Positions 5,998-7,972 of a stretch of DNA of 64,000 nucleotides are shown here, in pieces. Source of the stretch: Edwardsiella hoshinae NBRC 105699 = ATCC 33379 (lineage in GTDB: Bacteria > Pseudomonadota > Gammaproteobacteria > Enterobacterales > Enterobacteriaceae). The position numbers and the translations under genes are program-made. Under the pieces are notes generated by a model. That model was not told where the DNA came from and did not search any database. It saw nothing but the letters and a program-made list of their open reading frames with translations. The DNA lies in contig NZ_BAUC01000026.1 in NCBI RefSeq assembly GCF_000474215.1, forward strand, positions 1 to 64,000. Reading direction: 5' to 3'. Each line of letters opens with the position of its first letter. Position 1 is the stretch's first letter.

Positions 5998-6336
5998 TTA
6001 GATCGCCTCTTCGTCTTGCTCTCCAGTACGGATACGCACTACGCGCGCGACGTCATAGACAAAGATCTTACCGTCGCCGATCTTACCGGTCTGCGCCGTC
6101 TGCATGATGGTTTCGACACAGGTATCGACGATATCATCGGTCACCACGATCTCCAGTTTCACCTTGGGCAGGAAATCGACCATATACTCTGCGCCGCGAT
6201 ACAGCTCGGTATGTCCCTTCTGGCGTCCGAAGCCTTTGACTTCAGTTACCGTCATGCCGGTGATACCGACTTCGGCCAACGCCTCACGCACATCATCCAA
6301 CTTGAACGGCTTAATAATCGCATCAATCTTTTTCAT
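5998..6336 (-). CDS. glnB: Nitrogen regulatory protein PII, GlnB
   Basis: A 112-residue PII signal protein. Trimeric GlnB senses 2-oxoglutarate and ATP/ADP and controls GlnE and NtrB; it is uridylylated by GlnD, whose gene is at 55.5-58.2 kb of this window. The T-loop with the uridylylation site is [11 protein letters not shown] (Tyr51), the B-loop is [11 protein letters not shown], and the C-loop is near VRIRTGE. Near-identity to E. coli GlnB by eye. The ATG at 6336 has AGAGGAG upstream; an upstream in-frame extension overlaps the end of nadE and is not used. It is 13 bases downstream of nadE, so the two are almost certainly co-transcribed, and a terminator follows. Confidence 0.98.
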
Positions 6337-6349
6337 CACTGCTCCTCTG

Positions 6350-7972
6350 TCACCAGTTTTTGCGGCCAAAGCCGGAGGTTATCGGATAACGGCGATCTTT
6401 GCCGAAGTTGCGTGCCGTGATACGAGGCCCGACGGCGGCTTGACGGCGTTTGTATTCGTTGATGTCCACCAGACGGATCACCTTGCGCACCACCGCCTCG
6501 TCGAAGCCATCGGCCACCAGCTGTGCCACCGACTTATCCTGTTCGACGTAACCTTGCAGGATGGCGTCTAACACATCATAGGGCGGCAGACTATCTTGAT
6601 CGACCTGATCCGGCGCCAGCTCGGCGGAAGGCGGACGATCGATCACCCGCTGCGGGATCACATAACCCAGCGTGTTGCGGTAGCGTGCCAGCTGGAATAC
6701 CAGGGTCTTCGGTACATCCTTCAACACGTCGAAACCGCCAGCCATATCGCCATACAGCGTGGCATAGCCGACCGCCATCTCACTCTTGTTGCCGGTGGTC
6801 AGCACCAGACGACGACGCTTATTGGACAGCGCCATCAGCACCACGCCCCGGCAACGCGCCTGGAGGTTCTCTTCGGTGGTATCGCGCTCGGTGCCGGCGA
6901 ACAGTGGCGCCAATTGCCCCATGAAAGCATCGAACATCGGCTCGATAGAGAGGATATCGAACTCGACCCCCATGGTCTGCGCTTGCTCCTGCGCATCGGC
7001 CACGCTGATGTCGGCGGTGTAGCGGAACGGCATCATCAGCGCCTGTACCCGCTCTTTACCCAATGCATCCACCGCGATAGCCAGCGTCAATGCGGAATCG
7101 ATGCCCCCGGACAGCCCCAACACCGCGCCCTGGAAACCGTTCTTAACGACATAGTCGCGCACCGCCAGGACCAGCGCCCGGTAAATCTGCGCTAACGGCG
7201 GCAACTCGCTGGCCGCATCGCGCATCGGCAGCGGGCGGGTCTCTGCCATCTGTACCTGCGTCACTTGCTCATCGAAGGCCGCCAGACGGTGAGTCAACTG
7301 CCCCTGGGCGTCGAAAACCTTAGAGCAACCGTCGAACACCAACTCATCCTGACCGCCGACCTGATTCAGGTAAAGCAGCGGCAGCCCGGTGCGACGGCAA
7401 TGATCGGCCAGCAGGGTGTTGCGCATGTAGGGTTTTTCGCGGTTATAGGGAGAGGCATTGATGGTAAGCAATAGCTCGGCCCCCGCGGCGGCCACCGCAT
7501 CCACCGGCTCAGTGAACCACACATCCTCACAGATCAGCAGCCCCAAGCGGTAACCCTTCAGGTTAAAGACGCAGGGAGCATCGCCGGCGCTAAAGTAGCG
7601 CATCTCGTCGAACACGCCGTAGTTGGGCAGACGTTGCTTGTAGTAACGCGCCTGTAACTGCCCGTCGGCGAACACCGACAGCGCATTGTACAGCGCCCCA
7701 TGCTCACGCCAAGGGTGACCGACGATCACGGCGATCGATCCGGAGGCCTGGCACAGGCGCGCCAACTGGCTCTGGCAGCGCTGGTGGAAGTCATCCCGGT
7801 ACAGCAGATCTTCCGGCGGGTAGCCACAGAGCGCCAGCTCAGAGAACATCACAATGTCGGCGCCCGCCTGCTGTTGCTGCGCCATGATGGCCAGCATACG
7901 CTCGGCGTTACCTTCGATGTCACCGACCAGCAAGTTCAGCTGGGCCAGTGCAATGGAGAGAGTTCGACTCAT
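6350..7972 (-). CDS. nadE: Glutamine-dependent NAD+ synthetase NadE
   Basis: A 540-residue two-domain enzyme that makes NAD from deamido-NAD, ATP and glutamine-derived ammonia. The N-terminal nitrilase-type glutaminase carries the catalytic triad as Glu45 ([16 protein letters not shown]), Lys112 ([14 protein letters not shown]) and Cys148 (LLICEDVWF). The C-terminal synthetase has the pyrophosphate loop [12 protein letters not shown] at about 282-293 and [19 protein letters not shown]. coli has only the short ammonia-dependent NadE, so this is the longer type. It directly precedes glnB. In some proteobacteria PII proteins bind this class of NadE, so the adjacency may be functional. It starts 163 bases after the glrR stop, leaving room for its own promoter. 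Confidence 0.97.

Follow-up and report, generated by a model that had tools for sequence, protein, structure and literature searches.

The nadE-glnB gene pair of Edwardsiella hoshinae: a glutamine-dependent NAD+ synthetase beside a PII protein, and the distribution of the pair by NadE type in Enterobacterales

The window analysed here, a stretch of 64,000 nucleotides of Edwardsiella hoshinae NBRC 105699 (contig NZ_BAUC01000026.1), carries on its minus strand a long nadE gene followed directly by glnB. The order on this strand is purL, GlmY, kinase, qseG, glrR, nadE, glnB, terminator and gmhA, and the features relevant to the pair, including glnD on the opposite strand, are the following:

12087-15974, minus strand: purL
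11778-11936, minus strand: GlmY small RNA
10199-11614, minus strand: sensor kinase at the place of glrK, named from its position
9480-10190, minus strand: qseG
8136-9476, minus strand: glrR, the gene upstream of nadE
8048-8055, minus strand: weak candidate -10 element (TTTACACT) upstream of nadE
6350-7972, minus strand: nadE, glutamine-dependent NAD+ synthetase, 540 aa, ATG start
6337-6349, minus strand: nadE-glnB gap of 13 bp, with a ribosome-binding-site-like AGAGGAG
5998-6336, minus strand: glnB, PII signal protein, 112 aa, ATG start
5949-5979, minus strand: intrinsic terminator 3' of glnB, with a T-rich tail after a stem of 12 pairs
5182-5763, minus strand: gmhA, beyond the terminator
55502-58204, plus strand: glnD, PII uridylyltransferase, about 48 kb from glnB

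Coordinates and common strand bear out the earlier note on this DNA, according to which nadE and glnB lie 13 bases apart. The sensor kinase scored below the cut-off for every family among the matches listed (25 of 79), and its name is therefore taken from position. The genome (3.7 Mb, 110 contigs) has a single nadE match, the gene described here, and two PII genes, namely this glnB and one on contig C98 abutting amtB. The presence of glnD in the window had also been noted and is correct, but at its distance the gene lies outside the nadE-glnB pair and is a weak argument for a unit.

The terminator at 5979-5949 has the most stem pairs among nine terminator-like sites in 5700-12200, where 5.5 are expected by chance, and it folds at -22.9 kcal/mol (z -3.2), with 1 of 200 shuffles equally good. 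An inverted-repeat search of 5900-6400 listed none, in disagreement with both the terminator scan and the folding. Since an intrinsic terminator cannot fit the 13-bp gap, a shared transcript of nadE and glnB is likely, a promoter within nadE being possible too; folding of the gap itself gave no stable structure. Of the shared terminator claimed previously, the stem after glnB is thus present, while co-transcription is inferred only. Upstream of nadE, the promoter scan listed nothing in the glrR-nadE gap, the candidate element at 8048-8055 included. The hexamer TACACT occurs in this gap, at variable distance, in 9 of 23 genomes with the long NadE and in 2 of 65 glrR-glnB gaps. PurR-like boxes were also sought 5' of nadE and glnB; the best matches had 5-8 mismatches of 16 throughout, and this uninformative search was set aside.

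Domain content, model match and catalytic residues together indicate that NadE is a glutamine-dependent synthetase, as had been proposed, and probably of the dimeric type (NadE2-Gln). The glutaminase domain occupies about residues 1-250 (CN_hydrolase, PF00795, at 7-242) and the synthetase domain about 260-540 (NAD_synthase, PF02540, at 264-512). The protein matches NF010588, which we take to describe the dimeric subtype, at 817 bits (cut-off 479), and the longer model NF002730, presumably that of the octameric (type 1) subtype, at 190 bits, below the cut-off of 473. Residues E45, K112 and C148, assumed to form the catalytic Glu-Lys-Cys glutaminase triad, are invariant in 31 of 31 aligned rows, which represent 30 genomes with the Edwardsiella hoshinae protein entered twice; the best matches among solved chains are 4f4h and 5kha. 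No stand-alone short NadE exceeds the cut-off of 250 in the genome when searched with NF001979, the model of the ammonia-dependent enzyme of E. coli type, and the best match (56.8 bits) falls within the long nadE.

GlnB passes the cut-off of the GlnB model NF008111 (238 bits against 202) and stays below that of NF007946, presumably the GlnK model (173 bits against 181); it is accordingly classed as a GlnB-type PII. Its T-loop carries Tyr51, a position assumed to be that of the uridylylated tyrosine. No PDB entry was common to the NadE and GlnB structure matches listed, and no solved complex was seen among them. A sequence signature of a present or lost NadE partner was sought by comparing GlnB in 30 rows from genomes with the long NadE, 66 rows from genomes with the short one and 61 rows from linked outgroups. 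The columns differing most between long- and short-NadE genomes were 75, 78, 79, 107, 109 and 110, and at most of these the short-NadE rows are split among themselves. Position 107 is Q in 29 of 29 long-NadE rows and E in 57 of 66 short-NadE rows, and E is also found there in 34 of the 61 linked outgroups. The two sets hardly differ in mean site entropy (0.122 and 0.128), and none of the T-loop columns 37-55 was flagged in the long- versus short-NadE comparison. With its columns either split or common to linked outgroups, the candidate signature was dropped.

The earlier note had proposed surveying linkage against NadE type, and across the order NadE type does predict glnB linkage. In a sample of 394 genomes, 114 encode a long NadE (at least 54% identity). 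All 114 loci were inspected, and at 112 of them the next gene downstream, in the same orientation, is glnB, with gaps of about 5-153 bp. These 112 genomes span 14 family groups, and the adjacency far exceeds chance. The two unlinked genomes, of 1.2 Mb (G153) and 1.7 Mb (G022), have no glnB match genome-wide. None of the 114 shows a short ammonia-dependent NadE as well: at best, their matches to NF001979 have E-values of 1e-8 to 1e-18, while the cut-off of this model is passed by 196 of the 394 genomes. Short NadE is frequent in further families of the order too, so that NadE type has switched more than once within it.

Nine genomes of the order carry another long NadE, a distant one with 40-43% identity, and eight of these also have the short NadE; the two coexist in group f8 (G340, G173, G255, G313 and others). 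At the loci of four of these eight genomes, and at that of a further genome with a 27-32% match (G282), no glnB was found within the approximately 5 kb fetched, and each of these genomes has two PII genes elsewhere.

Within the family Enterobacteriaceae (149 genomes), 36 encode the long NadE, 86 a short NadE above the cut-off and none both. Wherever the long NadE occurs with a full GlnB, the genes are adjacent and on the same strand (24 of 24), with gaps of 11-156 bp (median 13; 23 of the 24 rechecked). In one of the 24 (G520:C1:1733706-1735345), the reading frame of nadE is broken into two that overlap, while the neighbouring glnB is intact and no short NadE passes the cut-off; we read this as a frameshift or assembly error. 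The remaining 12 of the 36 long-NadE genomes are without a full GlnB, 11 of these being of at most 2.4 Mb. At one such locus (G421:C1:838568-838759, genome of 2.4 Mb), an intact nadE is followed directly by what remains of glnB, interrupted by three stops, a case of glnB decaying while nadE persists. Seven of these 12 genomes were placed on a NadE tree of 35 rows, where they need at least three changes. Since NadE is retained without a full GlnB, GlnB is dispensable for NadE function.

These genomes also allowed the constraint on NadE after glnB loss to be examined. The glutaminase/synthetase divergence ratio is 1.12-1.35 without glnB (7 rows, from 7 of the 12 genomes lacking it, with the pair G324-G296 counted twice) and 1.44-5.94 with glnB (23 rows). 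GuaA and PyrG, likewise two-domain glutamine enzymes, served as controls, and their ratios are flattened as well in the genomes lacking glnB (p 0.018 and 0.020); these figures retain a G449 GuaA row in the wrong frame, while G421 is without GuaA and 5 of the 23 glnB-bearing rows are without a control. Relative to the slow domains of GuaA and PyrG, the synthetase domain of NadE showed no acceleration (p 0.37 and 0.35). Measured against the fast domains of the two controls, the NadE glutaminase domain evolves a little more slowly (p 0.021 and 0.0002). The rows are related and those lacking glnB come chiefly from small genomes, therefore the shift is attributed to general relaxation; with the controls flattening likewise, a NadE-specific change was dropped.

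The statement that E. coli lacks the pair and has the short NadE also held. In E. coli K-12, glrR and glnB are spaced by 60 bp with no nadE between them, and the same arrangement, with glrR directly upstream of glnB, is found in 65 of the 69 family genomes with short NadE and full GlnB; in the other four a glrR match is absent. The E. coli branch has its short ammonia-dependent NadE encoded elsewhere and has kept glnB in place. A tree of GlrR and GlnB (96 rows, 30 long-NadE and 66 short-NadE including E. coli, after dropping the four without glrR) requires two changes of NadE type. However, a tree with the short-NadE rows constrained to one clade beat the free search, and as such a clade is not rejected (AU p 0.866), a single change within the family appears compatible with these sequences, if unproven. 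The order glrR-nadE-glnB also occurs beyond the family, in G010, G035 and G004, from two other family groups, with a glrR match in G026 as well. Because of these occurrences in other families, and of the linkage in Aeromonas, Gilliamella and Ferrimonas, a loss of nadE seems likelier than a gain.

On a broader scale, the best 80 of 591 named loci were scanned. Of these 80, 34 have glnB on the same strand no more than 300 bp downstream, one has it at 2.8 kb, and 45 have a long NadE without glnB in the fetched stretch. The linked loci of this set include Serratia, Yersinia, Proteus, Xenorhabdus, Photorhabdus and Arsenophonus, together with Aeromonas, Gilliamella, Idiomarina and Azoarcus; those of Pseudomonas and Marinobacter are unlinked. 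A glrR match (at least 350 bits) is missing from the fetched stretch in 69 of the 80, and 23 of these 69 have glnB at most 300 bp downstream.

The nadE-glnB pair is already published, and the earlier note recognised it correctly in this window. The available text of PMC7196632 (2020) reports 1300 PII-nadE islands, 436 of them gamma-proteobacterial, which share with the present locus the two genes, a long NadE with a glutaminase domain and a PII with the T-loop tyrosine. It supports the claim that PII relieves the inhibition of NadE by NAD in Azospirillum and others: in vitro, dimeric NadE is bound by PII and released from inhibition by NAD+, as seen with the proteins of A. brasilense, H. seropedicae and Synechocystis. 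For A. brasilense, the same text describes the effect as blocked by uridylylation or high 2-oxoglutarate and as retained by PII without its T-loop. The PIIs tested in these systems differ from the protein studied here, being A. brasilense GlnZ and GlnB, the latter much less effective, the H. seropedicae protein that the methods call HsGlnK, and the PII of Synechocystis; nadE and PII genes are unlinked in A. brasilense and Synechocystis. Moreover, according to the portion of PMC7646526 consulted, GlnZ fished both long A. brasilense NadE isoforms and not the short one, in agreement with the exclusive linkage to long NadE found here. PMC11617674, in the part available, describes glnB as mostly linked to glnA or nadE. 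The P. mirabilis locus printed in PMC8745638 has the same order (purL, glmY, qseE/glrK, qseG, qseF/glrR, nadE, glnB), and nadE is missing there in E. coli and Salmonella; the accessible account of that locus is silent on NadE regulation. A further parallel is the glnK-amtB operon, where a PII gene also stands beside the gene of its binding partner and of which this genome has an example (G000:C98), although that partner is a membrane channel and not an enzyme. Neither the passages available nor the records listed by our literature search contained a test of a PII encoded beside nadE on its own NadE.

By analogy with these systems, we consider it probable that nadE-glnB is a short transcription unit of an enzyme and its dissociable regulator, the GlnB of Edwardsiella hoshinae presumably acting like the tested PII orthologues. 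When nitrogen is plentiful, with high glutamine and low 2-oxoglutarate, unmodified GlnB would bind NadE and make it less sensitive to feedback inhibition by NAD+. Under nitrogen shortage, GlnD would uridylylate GlnB and 2-oxoglutarate would stop its binding, leaving NadE restrained by NAD+. The regulatory unit suggested in the earlier note is in this form backed by orthologue biochemistry and by the survey, with the qualification that the biochemistry comes from other bacteria and that linkage alone can persist without interaction.

The operon could instead be an expression unit only, its two products being needed from one promoter, with GlnB not acting on the NadE of Enterobacterales, or with GlnK doing so. 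The weak effect of A. brasilense GlnB compared with GlnZ and the naming of the purified H. seropedicae PII as HsGlnK (both from the available text of PMC7196632) agree with this explanation, as do the failure to find a NadE-linked signature in GlnB sequences and the persistence of nadE after glnB loss. We nevertheless regard it as unlikely, given a linkage kept in 112 of 114 genomes and 14 family groups and recurring in beta-proteobacteria, and given that an action of PII on NadE was seen in a cyanobacterium as well as in two classes of proteobacteria, two of these three systems being unlinked (PMC7196632, in the text available). That the pair is an old one kept by shared descent, without present function, would fit the conserved order of glrR and glnB where nadE was lost and the glrR upstream in a few genomes of other families, but is very improbable, since the 23 linked loci among the 69 without glrR (best 80 of 591) indicate that the pair outlives its neighbourhood.

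A regulatory pairing of NadE and GlnB would tie NAD synthesis, an essential process, to nitrogen status. The comparative part added here is that enzyme type and gene pair come and go together within one order. Many relatives of E. coli thus have a PII target that is probably missing from E. coli itself, and conclusions on PII drawn from this organism may overlook NadE. We extend this tentatively, at somewhat less than even confidence, to the proposal that NAD synthesis in Enterobacterales has a dedicated regulator in the operon-encoded GlnB and not in GlnK, and that within the family the E. coli branch gave up the control of NAD by PII in one step when swapping to the ammonia-dependent NadE. 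If true, the PII network of E. coli would be a reduced, derived version missing an ancestral output.

Additional features were registered elsewhere in the window. A second ammonium transporter gene (946-2217, plus strand, 423 aa) lies about 3.8 kb from glnB and scores 290 bits against an AmtB cut-off of 657; the other amt gene of the genome is the one adjoining the second PII gene on C98. The best matches of the gene at 946-2217 in plasmid records are in Providencia rettgeri (80%) and Hafnia alvei (71%), and for this reason it may travel between genomes. RNA matches above the gathering score were obtained for CsrB (61651-61995, minus strand) and t44 (54340-54443, minus strand).
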